The notes beneath the pieces were generated by a model. It saw nothing but the letters and a program-made list of their open reading frames with translations, made no database searches and had not been told where the DNA came from. Below are positions 3,637 to 13,361 of a DNA stretch of 33,460 bases, piece after piece. A program made the translations under genes and the position numbers. This DNA is from a virus. The first letter of the stretch is position 1. Every line of letters begins with the position of its first letter. The stretch spans positions 1 through 33,460 of the IMG/VR virus record IMGVR_UViG_3300011116_000205; one strand, 5' to 3'.

Positions 3637-3891
3637 ATGGACGGTCAGATGATAATCAATCTGTTGGTGGGTAGCGGTCTGGGTGTACTAGGCTGGTTCG
3701 CTCGACAACTCTGGGATGCAGTTGAGAGATTACAGCATGACGTTAAGGGTATCGAGATTTGCCTACCATCGAACTATGTCCGAAAACAGGATATGTCCGA
3801 TTTGAAGCATGATATAGAAGCAAGGTTTGACAAGATTGATATGACGCTAGAGAAACTCTTTGAAAAGCTCGACACCAAAGCAGATAAGTGA
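3637..3891 (+). CDS. Membrane-anchored coiled-coil protein of the lysis cassette
   Basis: An 84-residue protein whose ATG abuts the preceding stop. Residues about 5-22 (MIINLLVGSGLGVLGWFARQ) form one transmembrane helix. The remainder is a charged amphipathic coil (AVERLQHDVKGIEICLPSNY, then DIEARFDKIDMTLEKLFEKL) ending DTKADK. Proteins with this layout are common beside phage holins. Whether it acts as a holin, antiholin or virion-associated factor cannot be told. Its stop overlaps a GTG start for the next gene (GTGA), supporting co-translation. Confidence 0.72.
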   Translation: MDGQMIINLLVGSGLGVLGWFARQLWDAVERLQHDVKGIEICLPSNYVRKQDMSDLKHDIEARFDKIDMTLEKLFEKLDTKADK

Positions 3892-4969: not shown

Positions 4970-5035
4970 GTTAACAATACAGGGCGGTTAGGTTAACAAT
5001 ATAGGACAATTAGGTTAACAATACAGGGCAATTAG
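4970..5035 (+). repeat. Three tandem 22-bp repeats in the convergent gap
   Basis: Units at 4970-4991, 4992-5013 and 5014-5035 each begin GTTAACAATA and end in TTAG, with differences only in the middle (CAGGGCGG, TAGGACAA, CAGGGCAA). Each unit opens with the palindrome GTTAAC. They lie immediately after the o-spanin stop, where rightward lysis genes meet the leftward operon. Possible roles are iteron-type origin, protein-binding array or transcription boundary. Nothing in the sequence decides between them. Confidence 0.9.
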
Positions 5036-5059
5036 TTATACCTGTTTTAGTATATAACT
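5034..5059. terminator. AT-rich inverted repeat, possible bidirectional transcription stop
   Basis: AGTTATA (5034-5040) and TATAACT (5053-5059) are perfect 7-bp complements separated by 12 nt containing GTTTTAG. The element lies between two convergent operons, directly after the 22-bp repeats. The stem has only one G-C pair and no clean T-run follows, so it is weak for an intrinsic terminator. The call rests mainly on location. Confidence 0.3.
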
Positions 5060-5067
5060 TGATATAA

Positions 5068-5238
5068 CTACTGTTTGTACTGACCGCTAGAATCAAACTT
5101 CTTTTTACCAGCAGCACAGGCAGGGCAAATCCTTCTAGTTACTTTACCTAATTTATTGTAGATAGGCTTCCATGCGCTCAAGTCTTTATCTATGACATAG
5201 ACGGGCTTCTGACACTGCATACAAAACTTTGTGGTCAT
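5068..5238 (-). CDS. Small zinc-ribbon-like protein
   Basis: A 56-residue ORF: FCMQCQKPVYVIDKDL, then KVTRRICPACAAGKKKFD. The C-x2-C pairs at residues 6-9 and 38-41 would bind one zinc ion as a treble-clef or ribbon fold, and the rest is basic. It is the last gene of the leftward operon, 22 nt after the SleB-like gene. No good Shine-Dalgarno is seen close to the ATG (GTGAGG is about 20 nt upstream), which lowers confidence. Nucleic-acid or protein contact is possible, but no family was recognised. Confidence 0.6.
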   Translation of the reverse strand: MTTKFCMQCQKPVYVIDKDLSAWKPIYNKLGKVTRRICPACAAGKKKFDSSGQYKQ

Positions 5239-5260
5239 GCAGGTGTAGACATATTAAACC

Positions 5261-5626
5261 TCACAAGTAGAAGTGGTGATTCCCACAGGTCTTATAGAAC
5301 GGTCTACCCCACTTAGGGTTAACTGTTATAGCGTGGAAATGCGTTGCTAAAAATGTACCGTCTGAGTATAGCGCAGTTCTAGCAGACTCTTCTGCTTTTA
5401 ACCATGCTGCCGATTCTTTGTTAGGTCTATGTTCTGGCTTCAATACACCGTTGTTTAGCTTCTCAGGAACCCAAGAAAACTGGTATGGAGCTAAAATAAC
5501 TTTCTTAATATCTCCGTCTGTCATCCTGTTTAATACGACCTGCGCTACCTTTATTTGACAATGCTCAGGCTCTCCACGAGCCTCGAACCATACTGTCATC
5601 GTTAACCACATTAGCATTTCTGTCAT
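5261..5626 (-). CDS. SleB/CwlJ-type cell-wall hydrolase
   Basis: A 121-residue single-domain protein with the Hydrolase_2 (SleB/CwlJ) pattern. It shows TVWFEARGEPEHCQIKVAQV with the family's conserved Glu15 in EARGE, VVLNRM, YQFSWVPEKLN and the later THFHAITVNPKW. Enzymes of this family cleave peptidoglycan glycan strands and are known from spores and phages. Here it lies on the leftward strand, separate from the rightward lysis cassette. It could therefore be an extra lysin expressed with replication genes. The start is supported by GAGG 4 nt before ATG, which overlaps the upstream TGA. Confidence 0.82.
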   Translation of the reverse strand: MTEMLMWLTMTVWFEARGEPEHCQIKVAQVVLNRMTDGDIKKVILAPYQFSWVPEKLNNGVLKPEHRPNKESAAWLKAEESARTALYSDGTFLATHFHAITVNPKWGRPFYKTCGNHHFYL

Positions 5627-5805
5627 TTTACCTCCGGCTTAGGCCAACCCTTTTTGCAAGCTATCATTGCATCAGCTATTCTGTAAGCAGAATTTGCAGT
5701 CAAAGTGCAGTCTGTACTGGTAATAACAGCCCTTCCTATCCCACTTACAATCCCGACCATTGCCATTGCTGCTAATTCATCTCTGTTATCACTGTTGTTT
5801 TTCAT
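5623..5805 (-). CDS. Small hypothetical protein
   Basis: A 60-residue protein starting at the ATG that overlaps the stop of the upstream 34-residue membrane ORF. A longer in-frame reading from 5883 would run through that ORF and is rejected. Residues are largely Ala/Met/Ile-rich (DELAAMAMVGIVSGIGRAVI), then ITSTDCTLTANSAYRIADAM and a basic tail. The ADAMIACKK pattern resembles short phage proteins whose function I do not know. ATGA coupling on both sides supports translation. No membrane segment is convincing. Confidence 0.62.
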   Translation of the reverse strand: MKNNSDNRDELAAMAMVGIVSGIGRAVITSTDCTLTANSAYRIADAMIACKKGWPKPEVK

Positions 5806-5906
5806 AATATTAGTCCTATGAGATAACCAATTATGACTAGAATCACCACTATTGGAGTAACGGCTATGCCGATCATCAGCCACTCGTGGTAGCTAAAACG
5901 CCTCAT
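5802..5906 (-). CDS. 34-residue single-pass membrane peptide
   Basis: A short ORF: MRRFSYHEWLMIGIAVTP, then IVVILVIIGYLIGLIL and stop. The basic start followed by an almost unbroken hydrophobic stretch predicts one inner-membrane helix with its N-terminus inside. Its TGA overlaps the next ATG (ATGA), and it begins 4 nt after the winged-helix gene stop, so it is probably made by translational coupling. Function is unknown; a small lysis regulator or host-membrane modifier is possible. Confidence 0.5.
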   Translation of the reverse strand: MRRFSYHEWLMIGIAVTPIVVILVIIGYLIGLIL

Positions 5907-5910
5907 AAAT

Positions 5911-6327
5911 TTATTTTTTATCATCTGTAACCCCTGTCACATAAAATCGCCGGTTATGGGTAAAGCCGTTTGTCTGAAGCATTCCACGTTGCACGAGTGC
6001 TGCTAGACTAGCCCCAAGACTACTGGGAGAGATTGTATCGCCACCCAAAGGCTTATTGAGCAAGTCGCTGCGCCTTGTGCCGGGCCATTTTTTAATGTAT
6101 TTGATTATGTCCAGCATCGCCATAGTCATACGCTTGACTGGCTTGGCGCGGCTCTCTCGCTTGTAATCACGCATCTCGACCGTTCTCATTGTCCTTGCTA
6201 TAGACTCGCGCTCCTTCCTGTCTCGATGATTCTTGCTGATGTTTAGGATGTCATCAGCTATGCCTACCAGCGATCCCTTGCCGGTAAGGTCGAAATACTG
6301 TCCACCTACTGGGTAATGTTGTTCCAT
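5911..6327 (-). CDS. Putative winged-helix DNA-binding protein
   Basis: A 138-residue protein. The C-terminal half (MAMLDIIKYIKKWPGTRRSD, LLNKPLGGDTISPSSLGASL, AALVQRGMLQTNG, RRFYVTG) reads as a winged helix-turn-helix: recognition helix, then GML turn and beta wing. The N-terminal half is charged, with a basic patch (NHRDRKERESIARTMRTVEM). It starts at ATG with TAGGAG 8 nt upstream and has its own promoter candidate (6343-6370). A transcriptional or replication regulator is likely; the target is unknown. It follows the VRR-NUC gene after an 82-nt gap. Confidence 0.65.
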   Translation of the reverse strand: MEQHYPVGGQYFDLTGKGSLVGIADDILNISKNHRDRKERESIARTMRTVEMRDYKRESRAKPVKRMTMAMLDIIKYIKKWPGTRRSDLLNKPLGGDTISPSSLGASLAALVQRGMLQTNGFTHNRRFYVTGVTDDKK

Positions 6328-6342
6328 TTTAATCTCCTAAAA

Positions 6343-6370
6343 AATATAGCTTGTTCGGATTAAGCATCAA
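6343..6370 (-). promoter_or_regulatory. Sigma70-like leftward promoter
   Basis: On the minus strand TTGATG (complement of 6365-6370) is followed after 16 nt by TATATT (complement of 6343-6348), close to TTGACA and TATAAT. The -10 lies about 16 nt before the start codon of the 5911-6327 gene, so a very short leader with TAGGAG is predicted. It occupies most of the only sizeable gap within the leftward operon. Confidence 0.5.
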
Positions 6371-6409
6371 AACTTTTGTCAGCACTAGGCTATTTCGCGC
6401 CGGACGCAT

Positions 6410-6736
6410 TCATCTGGAGATGAATTTTTGAATCTTACTTATGGCATCCTCCTTGCCATGTCCAATAATAACAGTATGACCAATAACCTGTAGATACTCT
6501 ATCCAGTCCTTTTGTGGCGGGCTTACTACACCACCCTTCTCTCGCTTCATTTCGATCCACAGGCTCCACGCAGGGACAAATAGATCAGGAACTCCAGCAG
6601 TTACACCCTCTACCTTTAACTTCATGGCGGTTACTTTAGACCTTAATCCACCATTGGGTATGGCAAATATCCTAACCGAAAAGCTGCGTCGAAACCACTG
6701 TACCAGCTCCCTCTGTTCTTCATGCTCTGTTCTCAT
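6410..6736 (-). CDS. VRR-NUC domain nuclease
   Basis: A 108-residue protein that is almost entirely a VRR-NUC domain (PD-(D/E)XK superfamily): FAIPNGGLRSKVTAMKLKVE, then GVTAGVPDLFVPAWSLWIEM, then K-x-E-K-G and VSPPQKDWIEYLQVIGHTVI. Catalytic candidates are the Asp of GVPDLF and the Glu and Lys of WIEMK. Known relatives include the nuclease domain of FAN1 and phage Holliday-junction resolvases. The start MRTEHEEQ is chosen over one 39 nt upstream because AGGAG lies 8 nt before it. It overlaps the helicase gene by 17 nt. A role in branched-DNA processing with the helicase is inferred. Confidence 0.85.
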   Translation of the reverse strand: MRTEHEEQRELVQWFRRSFSVRIFAIPNGGLRSKVTAMKLKVEGVTAGVPDLFVPAWSLWIEMKREKGGVVSPPQKDWIEYLQVIGHTVIIGHGKEDAISKIQKFISR

Positions 6737-8342
6737 TTTCCCAGCTCCTTTGTGTAACCCTAAAAAACTTTCCATCTAGCTTGTACTTTATATTTTTAGG
6801 GGCTTTTAATGTGTTCAAAAATATAGAGCTATTCCCCATATCATGCAATATATTAATATCTATGGGGCTTACGTTAGATTTTCGCATCATCATAAACAAT
6901 TCCGACACAGCTTTAGTGCCGACAAATCCCTCATGGTTAATACAAAAGTATTCGCTCACAATCTTATCCGATAGCTTATGCCCGTAATATCTTACAAGTA
7001 GCATATGCTTCCCAGATTGCTGGCTGACATGAGGACTCCACTTCCATGACTCGACCTCCATATCAATCCCATCTAGGCCCATGATGTCGTCATTCCCGAG
7101 CTTTAGCTTTGGCTTGGCCTTTACTGGGAACGGAGTGCCGCAGGCGGGGCATATCATTACTGATATATGCACAATCTCTTGGCAGTTATCACAAACCTTT
7201 ACCGGCGCTTCCCCATCACCATCTCCGCCCTTCTTTGGAGGCTCTACATTGGTAATCGGGCCATGCCTATGAATATTGCCTGCAAAATCCAGCACTAAAC
7301 AATGATCTGTATGGCTCTTAGGACGCATTCCTCGCCCAGCCATCTGTATATAAAGGCCCACGCTCATGGTTGGGCGCAGAAGGACTATTAGGTCTAGGTC
7401 TGGGTGGTCAAATCCAGTTGTTAGTACATTTGCATTCGTAACGGCTTTTATTATCCCGCTACGAAACTCTGTCAAAATTCTAGTGCGCTCCAGTTTTGGC
7501 GTATCTCCAGTGACCGTCTCTGTCACGATCCCGCGCCGATTCAGTTCTGCGGCAACATTCTCTGAGTGCTTTATGCCAGAGCAAAAGAATAACCAAGACC
7601 TTCTATCGCCAGCTAATTTTATAACTTCATCAACAACACGCTGATTTTGATCTGCCGTATTAACCGCAGCCTGTAGCTCACTCTCAATAAACTCTCCCCC
7701 ACGCTTATGGACTGAGGACGTATCGAGTTCTGCCTCTGTCTTTTTAGACCTTAATTTAGCCAAGAATTCTTTATGGACTAGCTCTGGGATGTCGATAGAT
7801 TGGAGTAGCTCATCGAATATAGCGGGCTTGTCGGTGATGACCCCATGCCCCAGACGGTACGGGGTGGCGGTCAATCCTACGACCCTCAGATTGGGATTGA
7901 TTGCAGTTAGGACATCTATCAGCGTCCGATACCCGCCCTCAGTGCTATGACCAACTAGATGGCACTCATCAATAATGATAAGGTCTATATGACCAATCTC
8001 ACGCCCACGCTTTCTAACTGATTGGATACCAGCAAAAGTAATGGGATTTCCAAGCTGCCGCAATCCCATGCCTGATGAATATATCCCCATCGGAGCATCA
8101 GGCCAATGCTCACGCATTCTGGCGGCATTCTGCTCGATAAGCTCCTTGACGTGCGTCAGCATCAGGATTTTAGTGTCGGGCCAGCTCTGTATAGCAGCCT
8201 TACAGAAAGCGGCGATTATGTGGCTCTTCCCCGATCCAGTAGGCAGGACTAGGCATGGGTGCTTGAGCTTGCTAATCCTAAACCAGTTATCTAGGTCGTC
8301 CAGAACTCGCTGCTGGTAGTCCCGTAGAGTTACCTCAATCAT
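6720..8342 (-). CDS. SF2 DEAD/DEAH-like helicase with zinc motif
   Basis: A 540-residue superfamily 2 helicase. Visible motifs in order are RDYQ (7-10), Walker A PTGSGKS (34-40), motif II DECH (125-128), motif III LTATPYR near 157-163, the second RecA lobe with VLTTGFDHPDLDL, and motif VI QMAGRGMRP near 334. A C-x2-C/C-x2-C zinc site (KVCDNCQ, MICPACG) follows near 384-402, then an unrecognised C-terminal domain. It resembles UvrB/RecG/RAD3-related phage helicases used in replication or recombination. It is coupled by ATGA to the Cas4-like exonuclease upstream and overlaps the VRR-NUC gene. Together they suggest DNA-end and branch processing. Confidence 0.93.
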   Translation of the reverse strand: MIEVTLRDYQQRVLDDLDNWFRISKLKHPCLVLPTGSGKSHIIAAFCKAAIQSWPDTKILMLTHVKELIEQNAARMREHWPDAPMGIYSSGMGLRQLGNPITFAGIQSVRKRGREIGHIDLIIIDECHLVGHSTEGGYRTLIDVLTAINPNLRVVGLTATPYRLGHGVITDKPAIFDELLQSIDIPELVHKEFLAKLRSKKTEAELDTSSVHKRGGEFIESELQAAVNTADQNQRVVDEVIKLAGDRRSWLFFCSGIKHSENVAAELNRRGIVTETVTGDTPKLERTRILTEFRSGIIKAVTNANVLTTGFDHPDLDLIVLLRPTMSVGLYIQMAGRGMRPKSHTDHCLVLDFAGNIHRHGPITNVEPPKKGGDGDGEAPVKVCDNCQEIVHISVMICPACGTPFPVKAKPKLKLGNDDIMGLDGIDMEVESWKWSPHVSQQSGKHMLLVRYYGHKLSDKIVSEYFCINHEGFVGTKAVSELFMMMRKSNVSPIDINILHDMGNSSIFLNTLKAPKNIKYKLDGKFFRVTQRSWENENRA

Positions 8343-9370
8343 CCTACAATCCTCGCATCGAACTCCATCCGTGTATCAATAATGGCTTGTGTTGGGTTGG
8401 CGCAGGCACTAGGATTTGCCACCATCTCCTTACTTGAGAAGCAGTTGCAATCAGCAACACCATTATTTACGGACTTGCCATCAATGATGTAGGTAGCATC
8501 ATGCAGACTTTCGCTATCGACCCGCTGCCACGGAACAAGGTCTGGGTGCAATACATGAGCATTGCAGCCGGTGCGCTGATTCTGCACCTCCAGCTCAAGA
8601 TTGTCGTATCTGGCGCACGTCCATTTAGAGTCTAGCGTAGCAGTAGAGTGGGCGCAGGTACGACAGTTGACCTCTTTGGTGAGCTTGGTATCGTGGCAGA
8701 ATGAGTGAGCCGGGCAGAACTTGCACTGATACCAGTCGGGTGCAGCTCCGGCGCAAGGCTCCGGCATCCTATCCAGCATCGTAATTCTTTTTCCGCGACT
8801 CACAGCCTTCTCAGCCACAGCATTATCAAGACGCACTCGCTCTGTATAGATGCGATCATCGTCCTTACAAACTCCAACATACAAAGCCCGGTCAATCTTC
8901 TTACCCATCATATATGCCTGCATCTGGATATAGTGCATGGGCTTACTGGCCTTGACACCAGACTTCACCAAATCATCAAAGGACTTCTTAGAGTGCGTCT
9001 TGAACTCAGCTATATGCTTCTTTGCCGGTGCTTCCGGCACTCCATGTGTAATCACACCGTCCAGACTTCCTGATACATGGCAGCCAAAGTCTACGCGGCT
9101 CTGTGCGCCACCAGTAGACACTATATTGATACCAATAGACCGGAGGTCGCTCACTATTTGAGCCTCCTCATTCTGTCCTCTCCTGAAAAGGCGCAAAACT
9201 CTACCCTGAAACTTCTCAACTACCGCCCACCGGAATGACAGCCACAGCCACCTGTCGCATGGATGTCCAAGTGTTGACGCGCCCAAGTGAGGACGTGGAG
9301 GCTCTTGACGATCCTCGTGAGCCTTGTCAATCAAGGCAGATAATGAATTAATCGGTTCTGGAATTTTCAT
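8339..9370 (-). CDS. Cas4-like PD-(D/E)XK exonuclease
   Basis: A 343-residue nuclease. Catalytic residues of the PD-(D/E)XK fold are Asp104 in GSLDG, Glu122 and Lys124 in IAEFKTH, plus the QMQAYM helix at 149-154. One cysteine in GHPCDRW (Cys38) and three in QCKFCPAHSFC (216, 219, 225) match the layout of the 4Fe-4S cluster in Cas4 and AddB nucleases. A further Cys-rich C-terminal extension (residues about 232-285, NCRTC, WTCARY, TGCNAH) may bind a second metal. It probably resects DNA ends to feed annealing with the neighbouring SSB-like and ATPase proteins. Translation may be controlled by the hairpin at 9378-9399. Confidence 0.86.
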   Translation of the reverse strand: MKIPEPINSLSALIDKAHEDRQEPPRPHLGASTLGHPCDRWLWLSFRWAVVEKFQGRVLRLFRRGQNEEAQIVSDLRSIGINIVSTGGAQSRVDFGCHVSGSLDGVITHGVPEAPAKKHIAEFKTHSKKSFDDLVKSGVKASKPMHYIQMQAYMMGKKIDRALYVGVCKDDDRIYTERVRLDNAVAEKAVSRGKRITMLDRMPEPCAGAAPDWYQCKFCPAHSFCHDTKLTKEVNCRTCAHSTATLDSKWTCARYDNLELEVQNQRTGCNAHVLHPDLVPWQRVDSESLHDATYIIDGKSVNNGVADCNCFSSKEMVANPSACANPTQAIIDTRMEFDARIVG

Positions 9371-9377
9371 ATAATTA

Positions 9378-9399
9378 CCCCCCCCCTTTCGGGAGGGGA
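9378..9399 (-). promoter_or_regulatory. Leader hairpin between Shine-Dalgarno and start codon of the Cas4-like gene
   Basis: On the minus strand an AGGAG (complement of 9400-9404) is followed by CCCCTCCC, a GAAA tetraloop and a run of nine G. The 8-bp stem includes one G.U pair. If it forms, the distance from AGGAG to ATG (9370) falls from 29 nt to 9 nt. Alternatively the G-run itself acts as the ribosome site, or the hairpin is a partial terminator after the SSB-like gene. Confidence 0.6.
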
Positions 9400-9405
9400 C
9401 TCCTA

Positions 9406-9876
9406 TTACTTAGCCGCCCAACTTGGGCCATTAGTTGATTTTGGTGCAGAAGTCTTTAATGCTGAAGGCATCGCACCACCTAAAGCCTTGTAAGATTTGA
9501 TTTTATTCTTATCTCCGTACTCCTCGCTGCGCTCTATCCCTAGATCAATTTTCATACTTGCTCCTATTAATTGATCTGAGTCAGTTGCCGAGCTAATGCC
9601 TCCAGCAAGCATAATTGCTGCAAATTGCTCACGCCCTATCTTTTCAGCGGTTGGATTTGCATTACGAATATTGATATTCGTGAACACAATACGACCCTGA
9701 TGCGTTGGGCCGGTGATATCAAAACGAACTGCAATGTATTGACCAGTGCCAGACTTCGTGGCCTTTACCTCAGACCCGGTTATTGTTGCATCGTACCAAC
9801 CCACTGGAAGAGGATCAAAAGAGTTCGATGGTTGGGACATCTTGCTTAGATCAAATGTTTCACCTAATGAGGCCAT
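9406..9876 (-). CDS. DUF669-type SSB-like protein
   Basis: A 156-residue protein fitting the phage DUF669 family: MASLGETFDLSKMS, LPVGWYDATITGSEVKATKS, GTGQYIAVRFDITGPTHQGR, IVFTNINIRNANPTAEKIGR. The family has an OB-like beta core and is found beside recombination genes. It is generally taken as a single-strand DNA-binding or recombination-mediator protein. The C-terminal tail is flexible (SALKTSAPKSTNGPSWAAK). The ATG has AAGGAG 9 nt upstream. It lies between a DUF of unknown function and the Cas4-like nuclease, supporting a role in coating resected DNA. The DUF669 assignment rests on motif memory. Confidence 0.82.
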   Translation of the reverse strand: MASLGETFDLSKMSQPSNSFDPLPVGWYDATITGSEVKATKSGTGQYIAVRFDITGPTHQGRIVFTNINIRNANPTAEKIGREQFAAIMLAGGISSATDSDQLIGASMKIDLGIERSEEYGDKNKIKSYKALGGAMPSALKTSAPKSTNGPSWAAK

Positions 9877-9881
9877 TTTTA

Positions 9882-10271
9882 TTACTCCTTAATTTGAATT
9901 GAAAAGCTGGGGCGACCCGGCTCGGTTGTCACTGCGCCCAAAAGTGGACGAGTGATTACTTCTGATGCTGACTTCCATGCAGTTACATTAATCTCAGGCT
10001 TCCATCTAAAAAGGCTTTGAAGGTGGTCGGTAAGGCCATTCTCTTCTGCCAATTCGACTAACTTCTCAGAATTTACCTTACGATTAAGACGACCTACGAT
10101 CTTGAGCTTGTAGTTACCAACATCAAAGTTCTCTGTTCCGTCTAAAGACTCTGGAATCTCAAGGGCTTCTACAATCAAATCCTCAAAACGCCTACGCTTT
10201 TGCATAGCATCTGCTTCTGCTAACTTGCTAGACTCCCACAAACGGACTAGATACTCGATGTCGGCACTCAT
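9882..10271 (-). CDS. Phage recombination-cluster protein of unknown function
   Basis: A 129-residue protein. The N-terminal helix (WESSKLAEADAMQKRRRFED) is followed by GNYKLKIVGRLNRKVNSEKL and a C-terminal ITRPLLGAVTTEPGRPSFSI segment. This pattern (helical hairpin, then a K-G-x-L-N-R-K-V strand, ending P-x-R-P-x-F-x-I) recurs in phages next to the Sak4-like ATPase and DUF669 genes. Its biochemical role is not established to my knowledge. It overlaps the ATPase gene by 4 nt. I infer participation in the recombination or replication complex. Confidence 0.68.
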   Translation of the reverse strand: MSADIEYLVRLWESSKLAEADAMQKRRRFEDLIVEALEIPESLDGTENFDVGNYKLKIVGRLNRKVNSEKLVELAEENGLTDHLQSLFRWKPEINVTAWKSASEVITRPLLGAVTTEPGRPSFSIQIKE

Positions 10272-10942
10272 TTTGAGCCACCAATCTTAGAGATAATTGC
10301 ACCAAGATCGGGCGCTTCCCACGCAGATAGTTTTGATGAGCGATCTTTTGCCAACCAAGAACCGTCAGAATCACACAGCAACGCCCTCTGACTAATTCCG
10401 TCCTCACCCTTCTCAACCCTAAGTGCCATTACAAGGTCAAAAAAGTAGGGAAGTGCTTGACCAGTTTTGTTACCCGGCATACTGGGTGAGTACAGAATCT
10501 TTCCGGTTTCATCTTGAGCCTTCTCACATTTTGCTGTGAAGTAGACGTGCTTATTGGTGATATCCCTAAACGCACGAATGATCTCGCTCATCTTGTCTTG
10601 CATTGCACCATATGCAGCACGCGGGTCTTTATTGTTTTTCTTTTCTGATGACAGGATCACTTCAGCTATCTCACTGATAGAGTCCAGTGCAACAGACTCA
10701 AATCCGTTTGCAGCATCAGATACAACCCATTTATAAGCCTCTTCCAAGTCGTTCACGTTGCGGATTTCAATGTAGGGCAGGTCTGCATCTTGCAATGACA
10801 GCAATCCTCCCTCTGCACTTAAAATAACAGGATGTGGCAAGGTCTTAATTAAAGTCGTCTTGCCTGCACCAGCTTGACCGTAAACCAACATCTTTACTCC
10901 GGCGGCAGATATACTGCCCGTACCTTTTAATTGAATTGACAT
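10268..10942 (-). CDS. P-loop ATPase, Sak4/RecA-like recombinase candidate
   Basis: A 224-residue ATPase with Walker A GQAGAGKT (22-29), a Walker B-like strand ESVALDSISEI around 80-90, AYGAMQDKMSEIIRAFRDI and VYFTAKCEKAQDETGKI. The length and layout match the phage AAA_24/Sak4 group, RecA-like ATPases that promote single-strand annealing with phage SSBs. It is the first gene of the leftward operon, directly downstream of the bidirectional promoter region, with TAGGAG 8 nt before ATG. The neighbours (SSB-like, Cas4-like, helicase) fit a recombination module. An ATPase is certain; Sak4 identity is likely. Confidence 0.85.
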   Translation of the reverse strand: MSIQLKGTGSISAAGVKMLVYGQAGAGKTTLIKTLPHPVILSAEGGLLSLQDADLPYIEIRNVNDLEEAYKWVVSDAANGFESVALDSISEIAEVILSSEKKNNKDPRAAYGAMQDKMSEIIRAFRDITNKHVYFTAKCEKAQDETGKILYSPSMPGNKTGQALPYFFDLVMALRVEKGEDGISQRALLCDSDGSWLAKDRSSKLSAWEAPDLGAIISKIGGSK

Positions 10943-10997
10943 TTTAATCTCCTAAGTTTGATCACATCATTTTGGAAAAATTCCGGTCGATGTGTAT

Positions 10998-11026
10998 TTG
11001 CATAATATTCCAGAATGAATTATATT
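10998..11026 (+). promoter_or_regulatory. Rightward sigma70-like promoter for the HTH/primase operon
   Basis: TTGCAT (10998-11003), a 17-nt spacer and TATATT (11021-11026) give a good sigma70 promoter 40 nt upstream of the HTH gene start. A CGATAAA word lies just downstream (11038-11044), near the expected start point. The core overlaps a leftward promoter in the same 33 bp, so the two cannot be occupied together. Confidence 0.65.
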
Positions 11027-11030
11027 GCAA
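11002..11030 (-). promoter_or_regulatory. Leftward sigma70-like promoter for the recombination operon
   Basis: Read on the minus strand, TTGCAA (complement of 11025-11030), 17 nt, then TATTAT (complement of 11002-11007). Its -10 sits on the -35 of the rightward promoter and vice versa. The predicted leader to the ATPase gene is about 50 nt and contains TGATCA (10961-10966) and TAGGAG. Confidence 0.6.
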
Positions 11031-11065
11031 GCGTTACCGATAAATAAATTACGAGGATGCACACA

Positions 11066-11245
11066 ATGTTAACCGCCGAAGATATTAAAGTCCGACTAAC
11101 TAACTCAAATTTAAGACGTGTCGCCCAAGACGCTGGCATACACCCTAGCACTCTTTATAGATTTTCTAAGATGGAATCTAAGCCATCGTATGCGACCATC
11201 AAGCTACTTAGCGACTACTTTGAGAGTCGCTCATGGCTGATCTAA
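11066..11245 (+). CDS. Small helix-turn-helix regulator
   Basis: A 59-residue protein. The segment LRRVAQDAGIHPSTLYRFSK is a clear helix-turn-helix (AQDAG turn, STLYR recognition helix), followed by MESKPSYATIKLLSDYFE, giving a minimal Cro/XRE-like fold. The ATG at 11066 is chosen because GAGG ends 9 nt before it; an in-frame ATG at 11057 directly abuts that site. It is the first gene of the rightward operon and overlaps the primase gene by 13 nt. It may control the twin promoters just upstream, possibly binding CGATAAA words. No larger repressor is seen, so a Cro-like role is the simplest guess. Confidence 0.78.
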   Translation: MLTAEDIKVRLTNSNLRRVAQDAGIHPSTLYRFSKMESKPSYATIKLLSDYFESRSWLI

Positions 11246-13254
11246 CTAAAATTCTAGGTGATTGGTCGCCATCTAGTCCAAAACAAATTGACCCACCAGA
11301 GATACAGCTATTTAACGCCATCCGGTCGGCGGGGCTAGAACCTCCGGCAGATATCAGGTTAGATGGCAGGCTGCATCGTTTTGCGTCCGGCACAAAGGGC
11401 GGTAGTGGACACGGTGATAAGTCGGGCTGGTATGTGTGCTTTGGTGACGGCATCCCAGCAGGCAGGTTCGGCGACTGGCGGTCTGGGGTGGAGATGTCAT
11501 TCCGGGCAGACATTGGAAGGACTCTATCTCCATTCGAGGAGATGTCTCACACCAATAGATTGGTAGAGGCTCGATCACTGCGGGATGCTGAGACAGAGAA
11601 GAAGCAAGAGGTCGCCGCCAACGTGGTCGATACGATCTGGTCGGGCTGCACTCATGCGACCACCGACCATCCGTACCTAAAGCGCAAGGGCATCGACGCT
11701 CATGGCGCTCGTGTTACGGGTGACGGTCGGCTCGTTCTGCCTCTGTATGATGAGAACTCTATCTTATGTTCATTACAGTATATAGATTCCGATGGAGACA
11801 AGAAGTATCACACCGGAGGGGCGACCGGCGGGAAGTTCTGGATGGTAGGCGCATTCGATGAGCCGGGAACTCTGTATATAGCAGAGGGATTTGCTACAGC
11901 GGCAACAATTCATGAGCAAACCGACCGACCATGCGTAGCAGCGTACTCCGCATCTAATCTGGTCAAAATTGCTGGAATCATGCGTAACCGTCACGGAACA
12001 AATCAGGACATTGTTATCGTTGCCGATAATGATGAATCCGGCGTGGGCCAGTCCCATGCAGACCAAGCGTCAGCACTCTATAAGACGCGCACAGTAACCC
12101 CTCCAGAGAGGGGGGATGCAAATGATTATGTGGCGGCTGGGCATGACCTGTCAATCCTGCTTGTACCGCCAAAGCTAGATTGGCTCGTGCAGGCAGACGA
12201 GTTCTGTTCCAAGCCAGAGCCTATTACTTGGCTGGTCAAGAAGTGGATTCAGTCAGAGGCGCTCATCATGGTGCATGGCCCGTCAGCGGGTGGCAAAACC
12301 TTCGTAGTCCTAGATTGGATTCTCAGGATGGCGGCAGATATTCCTGATTGGTGCGGTGAGCAGCACAAGATAAAGCCCGGTGGTAATGTTGTGTATCTGG
12401 CGGGCGAGGGTCATAAGGGCATAAAGTCCAGAGTAGCTGGCTGGAAGCATTACCATCATGTGCCGCGTCTCAGAATGCACATCTCCCGTGATGGCTGCGA
12501 TCTGAATACAAAAGAAGGTCTACAACGTGTGGTCGATAACATCAACAGCCTTAATCAGAAGCCTACTATTATCGTTGTAGATACCCTGCACCGGTTCTTG
12601 CTCGGGGACGAGAACTCGAGCGTTGACACCAAAGGTATGCTGGATGCCTGCTCTATTCTGATGTCTAAATATAAATGTACGGTGCTGCTGGTGCATCACA
12701 CTGGTGTCTCTGAAGAGACTCAGCACCGGGCGCGAGGATCGTCAGCATGGCGTGGGGCGCTCGATATTGAGATCAGTATTGTCCCTAGCAAGCATCGCGG
12801 CGGCCCAATCGAGATCGTCCAGCGCAAGAGTAAAGACTCTGAATTGACGGATTCGGTCTGGGTAGAGCTTGAAAGATTTGCCGTTCCGGGGTGGGAAAAT
12901 GAGGATGGAGAACCTTCGATGGCGGCAGTTGTAAATCAAATTGATGCCCCACAAGAGGTCAAAAAGGACTCAAAATTATCGGTCAATATGAAGGTTTTTG
13001 AGAACGCATGGTGGAGTGCAAATGCGGAAGTTAGGGATGGCAAACCGTACCTAAGTAGGTCTGGTTTGGTCGAAAAATTGCAGGCTGATGGGGTGTCGGA
13101 AACGCTAATTTCGAGAAAATTGAGGCCGGGAAGCTCGGATCAGCTAATTGGGTCACTTAGGATGGGCGAAACCATCGTTGACCATGATAATGGCTGGCTG
13201 GTCAATGATTTGGTATGGTCTAACATACTGATGTTAAACAAGAACTCAAGATAG
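11233..13254 (+). CDS. TOPRIM primase with RepA-like helicase domain
   Basis: A 673-residue replication protein. The first about 115 residues may hold a DNA-binding or primase accessory part (GWYVCFGDGIPAGRFGDWRS). A TOPRIM domain follows with LYIAEGFATAATIH near 214-227 (catalytic Glu) and VIVADNDESG near 261 (D-x-D). The C-terminal half is a RecA-fold helicase: Walker A GPSAGGKT at 349-356, Walker B TIIVVDTLHRF near 445, and LLVHHTG near 484, as in hexameric RepA helicases. It would unwind the origin and prime DNA for the host polymerase, as the genome encodes none. Its start overlaps the HTH gene. The GTACC array begins right at its stop codon. Confidence 0.92.
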   Translation: MADLTKILGDWSPSSPKQIDPPEIQLFNAIRSAGLEPPADIRLDGRLHRFASGTKGGSGHGDKSGWYVCFGDGIPAGRFGDWRSGVEMSFRADIGRTLSPFEEMSHTNRLVEARSLRDAETEKKQEVAANVVDTIWSGCTHATTDHPYLKRKGIDAHGARVTGDGRLVLPLYDENSILCSLQYIDSDGDKKYHTGGATGGKFWMVGAFDEPGTLYIAEGFATAATIHEQTDRPCVAAYSASNLVKIAGIMRNRHGTNQDIVIVADNDESGVGQSHADQASALYKTRTVTPPERGDANDYVAAGHDLSILLVPPKLDWLVQADEFCSKPEPITWLVKKWIQSEALIMVHGPSAGGKTFVVLDWILRMAADIPDWCGEQHKIKPGGNVVYLAGEGHKGIKSRVAGWKHYHHVPRLRMHISRDGCDLNTKEGLQRVVDNINSLNQKPTIIVVDTLHRFLLGDENSSVDTKGMLDACSILMSKYKCTVLLVHHTGVSEETQHRARGSSAWRGALDIEISIVPSKHRGGPIEIVQRKSKDSELTDSVWVELERFAVPGWENEDGEPSMAAVVNQIDAPQEVKKDSKLSVNMKVFENAWWSANAEVRDGKPYLSRSGLVEKLQADGVSETLISRKLRPGSSDQLIGSLRMGETIVDHDNGWLVNDLVWSNILMLNKNSR

Positions 13255-13255
13255 T

Positions 13256-13361
13256 GTACCGCTGTACCGTACTGTACCGGAGCGTACCGGTACGTTTTGG
13301 TACAAAGACGAGAATAGTGTACCGTACCGTACCCCCCTCTTTAGAGGGGGTACAGCGGTAC
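13256..13361. repeat. Dense GTACC/GGTAC word array with 13-bp terminal inverted repeat
   Basis: Eleven GTACC or GGTAC words occur in 106 bp: forward at 13256, 13264, 13274, 13284, 13319, 13324 and 13329, inverted at 13289, 13299, 13349 and 13357. The outer ends are a perfect inverted repeat, GTACCGCTGTACC (13256-13268) and GGTACAGCGGTAC (13349-13361). It lies directly after the primase-helicase gene, before an AT-rich promoter. Candidate functions are replication origin, operator array or structured RNA. The ORF across it is an artefact of the repeats. Confidence 0.85.
13329..13353 (+). terminator. Strong GC-rich hairpin downstream of the primase gene
   Basis: GTACCCCC (13329-13336) plus CTC pairs with GAGGGGGTAC (13344-13353) around a TTTA loop with one bulged C. 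It is a 10-bp stem, thermodynamically strong. No T-run follows, so intrinsic termination is uncertain. It may instead act as a cruciform within the GTACC array. Confidence 0.5.

Follow-up and report, generated by a model that had tools for sequence, protein, structure and literature searches.

How does a ribosome reach the start codon of a phage exonuclease gene when an SD (Shine-Dalgarno) motif stands 29 nt upstream and a stable hairpin lies in between? The question arises in the window, the whole 33,460-base stretch analyzed here (positions 1 to 33,460 of the virus record IMGVR_UViG_3300011116_000205). Its minus strand carries a recombination operon encoding, in order, a Sak4-like protein, a DUF7173 protein, a DUF669 protein resembling phage single-strand-binding proteins (ssb-like), a Cas4-domain exonuclease, a helicase and a VRR-NUC protein (Table 1). 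The ssb-like protein also matched phrog_6015 and phrog_378 ('single strand DNA binding protein'); a Pfam search with the exonuclease at 1e-3 was without match, as were Rfam (gathering cut-offs) and ARAGORN over the window.

Table 1. Operon genes and leader elements of the exonuclease gene in the window
Feature	Position	Strand	Remarks
Sak4-like gene	10268-10942	minus	
DUF7173 protein gene	9882-10271	minus	
DUF669 / phage single-strand-binding-like gene	9406..9876	minus	PF05037, E 4.4e-11; stop TAA 9408-9406
AGGAG, distant SD	9400..9404	minus	GGA in 8/8 and GGAG in 7/8 distinct clade leaders; anti-SD -6.8 kcal/mol
Hairpin 5' arm, CCCCTCCC	9391..9398	minus	
GAAA tetraloop	9387..9390	minus	
Hairpin 3' arm, GGGGGGGG	9379..9386	minus	Eight of nine G; ninth G at 9378
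G-run including ninth G, GGGGGGGGG	9386-9378	minus	
TAATTAT spacer, hairpin to start codon	9371..9377	minus	
Cas4-domain exonuclease gene, 343 aa	8339..9370	minus	phrog_1990, E 1.3e-92; ATG 9370-9368
Helicase gene	6720-8342	minus	
VRR-NUC protein gene	6410-6775	minus	

A hairpin separates the Shine-Dalgarno motif from the start codon

On the minus strand, the ssb-like gene ends in TAA (9408-9406), after which come T, AGGAG, T, CCCCTCCC, GAAA, GGGGGGGGG, TAATTAT and the ATG of the exonuclease. The N-terminus read from this ATG, MKIPEP, is identical across 10 aligned proteins of the clade described below, and there is no further in-frame start upstream of position 9370. The distance from AGGAG (9404-9400) to the ATG (9370) is 29 nt, exceeding the normal initiation distance, and none of the four-mers AAGG, AGGA, GGAG or GAGG occurs 3-12 nt before the ATG, although the G-run has anti-SD affinity (-10.6 kcal/mol). 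Between the two, the segment 9398-9379 forms an 8-bp hairpin with a GAAA loop and about -17 to -18 kcal/mol, which is present in both the MFE and the centroid fold of a 91-nt region. Excising these 20 nt leaves T, G and TAATTAT, or 9 nt; the initial annotation had proposed this shortening from 29 to 9 nt, and its coordinates and counts are exact. The G-run comprises nine residues in the window and eight in two close relatives (L005 and L019), a difference that could be a sequencing error; a change in homopolymer length shifts the spacing by 1 nt.

From the sequence comparisons that follow, we consider it fairly probable (about 0.7) that this leader forms a split ribosome-binding site like those of T4 genes 25 and 38, placed at the ssb-exonuclease junction. 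The 30S subunit would pair with AGGAG right behind the end of the ssb-like gene, while the GAAA hairpin would remain folded and be taken up as a bulge within the spacer. The ATG would thereby come to lie some 8-9 nt from the SD on the shortened path, allowing translation of the exonuclease. We infer that ribosomes take this split path and initiate more often thanks to the hairpin.

The layout and the pairing are conserved in close relatives

Scans of IMG/VR returned 20 further clade members with 85-100% protein identity to the window (n=21: the window, L002-L019, L082 and L112). All 21 phages keep the split layout, in eight distinct 45-nt leaders with three stems, namely CCCCTCCC/G8, CCCTGCCC/GGGTGGGG and, with a longer loop, CCCTCCCTA/TAGGGAGGG. 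The initial annotation had looked to conservation of the pairing in related phages, and the pairing held: in a register set by hand, 0 of 64 core pair cells were broken across the eight leaders, and two of the eight stem pairs had changed on both sides. One pair goes from C-G to A-U, another from U-G to G-U and to U-A, and a third, on one side, from C-G to U-G. Because pairing is conserved while the sequence changes, the stem is real. When the number of substitutions that separates the first two stem versions was placed at random, all pairs survived in 3.9% of cases, and in 0.5% for the L015 type.

The upstream motif is kept as well, with GGA(G) 0-2 nt before the stem throughout the clade, though the stop codon lies at varying distances from it. 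One leader (L013) joins the upstream half of one version to the stem of another with unchanged spacing. A tree of 70 proteins places the split leaders on one side of a branch with an SH-aLRT support of 99, and the eight clade leaders stand for few evolutionary events.

Specificity of the layout

The total folding energy of the 91-nt region was ordinary compared with dinucleotide shuffles (z -1.09, with 26 of 200 shuffles folding at least as stably), because the C and G runs persist through shuffling. The full arrangement was rarer: when the 50-nt leader was shuffled 2000 times, an SD, a hairpin of at least this energy and a start codon, in this order and with 4-12 nt in all, arose five times. 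A detector for this layout, which recovered both positive controls (T4 genes 25 and 38), found it at one of the 51 genes of the window, the exonuclease. Applied to 2460 distinct ORF starts from the collected loci, the search gave 11 matches, comprising the eight clade leaders, T4 gene 38, L108 and L115, the last of which is likely spurious; here T4 gene 25 fell under the energy cut-off, and L015 was omitted because its 3' arm contains GGAG. A pattern scan with GGAG returned 25 stretches, 17 from this clade and 8 others; a CTCC control also gave 8, so there is no excess beyond the exonuclease family. The eight others include a truncated gene for which no other relative was found (L117) and the beginning of a gene for a DNA polymerase (L108).

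The latter lies on a 190-kb viral contig and has apparent intein-like insertions. At positions 3747-3784 it reads GGAG-TG-22-nt hairpin-7 nt-ATG; its 49-58% relatives do not clearly retain the layout.

Split leaders occur in two distant relatives, one with swapped arms

A wider search reported 577 viral relatives, of which 80 were taken. In all, 167 loci with readable leaders were classified by rule. Three loci whose leader is missing or short (L062, L167 and L192), the low-identity or partial loci L087-L090, L093 and L094, and duplicate contig copies were excluded. In 124 leaders a conventional SD comes after the hairpin, 23 are split, 19 are without a hairpin at the cut-off and the remaining one (L079) is terminator-like. 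From hairpin end to start codon we counted 6-7 nt in 23/23 split loci, and 11-38 nt (median 30) in the 124 hairpin-then-SD loci.

Two split loci fall outside the clade, each represented by one MAG contig: L143 from Proteobacteria (60% identity) and L146 from Methylophaga (54%). An ssb-like gene lies upstream in both. The L143 leader reads TAAGGAG C-GGGGGG-GAAA-CCCCCC-G ACTTTCT ATG, with the G-run in the 5' arm and the C-run in the 3' arm. Since the arms are swapped, its 3' arm cannot serve as an SD. The L146 leader consists of TAGGAGG, a CTCCCC/GGGGAG stem, TATTTTAT and ATG. Loci like these two were sought in sets of 369 and 199 bacterial genomes, which yielded, besides themselves, only relatives of 37-46% identity. 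Plasmid and phage records queried with the exonuclease gave no additional close relative, the leaders of five phage records having been inspected. Some isolated phages (Salicola phage CGphi29, L119, and L120-L122) carry an extra gene between the ssb-like and Cas4 genes, a methyltransferase in CGphi29, and the hairpin junction is absent from them.

Energetics and alternative explanations

The stems of the split loci range from -9.8 to -18.1 kcal/mol, and pairing with the upstream SD gains -5.3 to -10.2 kcal/mol. A hairpin that stays folded spares about 10-18 kcal/mol of unfolding. The split route is the least costly, as the stem is kept, whereas use of the 3' arm costs the stem for a gain of -7.1 to -11.5 kcal/mol (+0.4 in L143).

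The chief alternative is that the G-run of the 3' arm is the true SD, hidden by the hairpin, so that the exonuclease is repressed until the stem opens, as might happen when a ribosome completes translation of the gene before it. Inhibitory structures of this type are known at T4 genes e, soc, 49 and I-TevI, as the relevant passages of PMC3014915 describe. The 3' arm is indeed the better partner for the anti-SD in the window (-10.6 vs -6.8 kcal/mol for AGGAG) and in L015 (-11.5 vs -5.3 kcal/mol), and its spacing to the ATG is usable, so that in these two leaders a hidden SD opened by some factor is possible. L015 and L146 have GGAG inside the 3' arm at usable spacing; the 3' arm of L146 is SD-like (-7.8), with the upstream SD the better partner (-10.2). 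The arms of the CCCTGCCC/GGGTGGGG group, however, pair about as well as the upstream SD does (-7.1 vs -6.6 or -7.3), and L143 has the same layout with a 3' arm of no affinity (+0.4 vs -8.2 kcal/mol upstream) and no usable SD elsewhere at normal distance. A hidden SD also leaves the conservation of the upstream GGA unaccounted for.

The clade hairpin begins 7-11 nt past the stop, at or beyond the edge of the footprint of a terminating ribosome, and upstream translation should therefore melt little of the stem. We considered translational coupling through stem melting and regard it as unlikely for the clade on this distance; the L143 stem begins just 4 nt past the stop. Taken over all these leaders, a hidden SD is an unlikely explanation.

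The split-site reading, by comparison, accounts for the pairing, the upstream GGA, the constant stem-start distance and the swapped arms together. The suggestion of the initial annotation that the hairpin brings the SD near the Cas4-like start thus gains comparative support from the two-sided changes, the kept distances and the L143 swap, with the G-run a possible competitor in the window. Its alternative of the G-run as the ribosome site is possible in the window, where the G-run has the higher anti-SD affinity, and cannot apply to the L143 3' arm. The notion of a translational switch either way gained no support: no alternative conformer or ligand signal was found, and the hairpin is very stable.

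Initiation without any SD, for which the AU-rich, unstructured TAATTATATG would suffice and of which GGAG and the hairpin would be relics, is improbable to a greater degree. Among the listed ORF starts of the window, 24 of 51 are without an SD four-mer at 3-12 nt, some of these starts surely being misassigned. Yet the pairing, the GGA and both short distances persist despite sequence change, and the conventional SD after the hairpin in 124 of the 167 loci implies that the exonuclease family normally uses one. Least probable of all is that the hairpin tunes downstream transcript levels, either by weak intrinsic termination or by acting on mRNA processing or stability: a GC-rich stem immediately past the upstream stop codon, AT-rich tails (TTTATTCTT in L016, TATTTTAT in L146) and a hairpin at the same junction in relatives irrespective of SD position speak for it, but the TAATTAT tail of the window has no T-run, a terminator scan of 5000-13300 did not report the hairpin, strict termination would shut off exonuclease and helicase, and the constant stem-start distance of 6-7 nt is left unexplained.

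Evolutionary origin of the split leaders

A hairpin at the ssb-exonuclease junction is present in most relatives. The split loci lack a conventional SD downstream of the hairpin and carry GGA(G) ahead of it. An older intercistronic hairpin was probably co-opted once the downstream conventional SD had been lost, a direction of change that we infer; the leaders would also fit the insertion of a new hairpin. Maximum-likelihood trees (139 rows) separate the three split lineages, which requires 3 changes. A single origin was not rejected (p-AU 0.126) in a test of 37 rows, from which L145, L147, L079, L084 and rows over 84% alike had been removed. Tentatively, and with the odds somewhat against it, the old junction hairpin may have become a rigid bridge in a split ribosome-binding site three independent times, in the window clade, L143 and L146, with unrelated arms and a shared geometry (SD, 0-2 nt, stem, 6-7 nt, ATG). 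If true, split sites would be a solution that phages reach repeatedly, under a geometric rule open to measurement, and not a T4 oddity.

The hairpins of the hairpin-then-SD relatives (L023-L092, L118 and L140-L225) have features of their own. At least 5 A occur in the 10 nt 5' of the hairpin in 118 of 124, and at least 5 T 3' of it in only 16 of 124. On the opposite strand they resemble intrinsic terminators, inside an operon whose direction of reading is the reverse.

Ten of the 167 loci (L047, L051, L054, L055, L057, L064, L069, L163, L194 and L225) carry an additional RNA-like element, roughly 70-100 nt long, before the hairpin or start; in L054 it is at about 2840-2940. Most copies share the ends GGGGG-AAAG and GCAGCGAGTACCCC, or close variants, around a variable middle; L194 has only the GAGTACCCC end in common. 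The middle of the L054 element scored 27.7 with the Rfam tRNA model, slightly below the cut-off of 29. ARAGORN, run on seven of the ten loci and on L048, found no tRNA, and the L225 element had no Rfam match. The element looks like a scaffold able to carry a tRNA-like insert.

Comparison with known systems

The precedent for a hairpin-bridged ribosome-binding site in the open-licence literature is T4 genes 25 and 38 (PMC3014915), which the initial annotation had cited correctly. As the sections of that source on the two genes report, the hairpin shortens the SD-ATG distance from 22 to 5 nt in gene 38 and from 27 to 11 nt in gene 25, whose site is confined to one group of related phages and absent in remoter ones (PMC3014915). 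The window leader shares with gene 25, at the gene 26-25 junction, the distant SD, the bridging hairpin (29 to 9 nt here), the intercistronic position and the restriction to one group of related phages; with gene 38 it shares the order SD-hairpin-ATG and recovery by the same detector. The window gene and phage are unrelated to those of gene 25, and the window stem is GC-rich and much more stable (-16.8 vs -3.5 kcal/mol for gene 25 with the same detector). Gene 38 is likewise unrelated and has the shorter residual spacing.

The E. coli thrS leader is autoregulated. At its split site the ribosome tolerates a folded hairpin within the ribosome-binding region (PMC3936740); unlike the window hairpin, which parts SD and start codon, that of thrS parts two single-stranded ribosome contacts.

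Measured against these types, the window shares three features with a split ribosome-binding site: a distant SD, a hairpin leaving 5-11 nt, and layout and pairing conserved in close relatives. The SD-sequestering type of T4 e, soc, 49 and I-TevI is possible in the window and L015, and the 3' arm of L143 is incapable of it; the stem followed by a U-run of an intrinsic terminator is absent from the window. Searches of open-licence full texts brought up no comparable case in these phages. Gene finders and translation-rate models that require an SD within about 12 nt would overlook such sites. The natural series, in which three clade stems and one with swapped arms share a constant stem-start distance, offers a direct test of folded-spacer geometry for the 30S subunit. 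As an instance the site is new, in another phage family and at another gene than the T4 sites, with a GC-rich stem that exists with alternative and with swapped arms.
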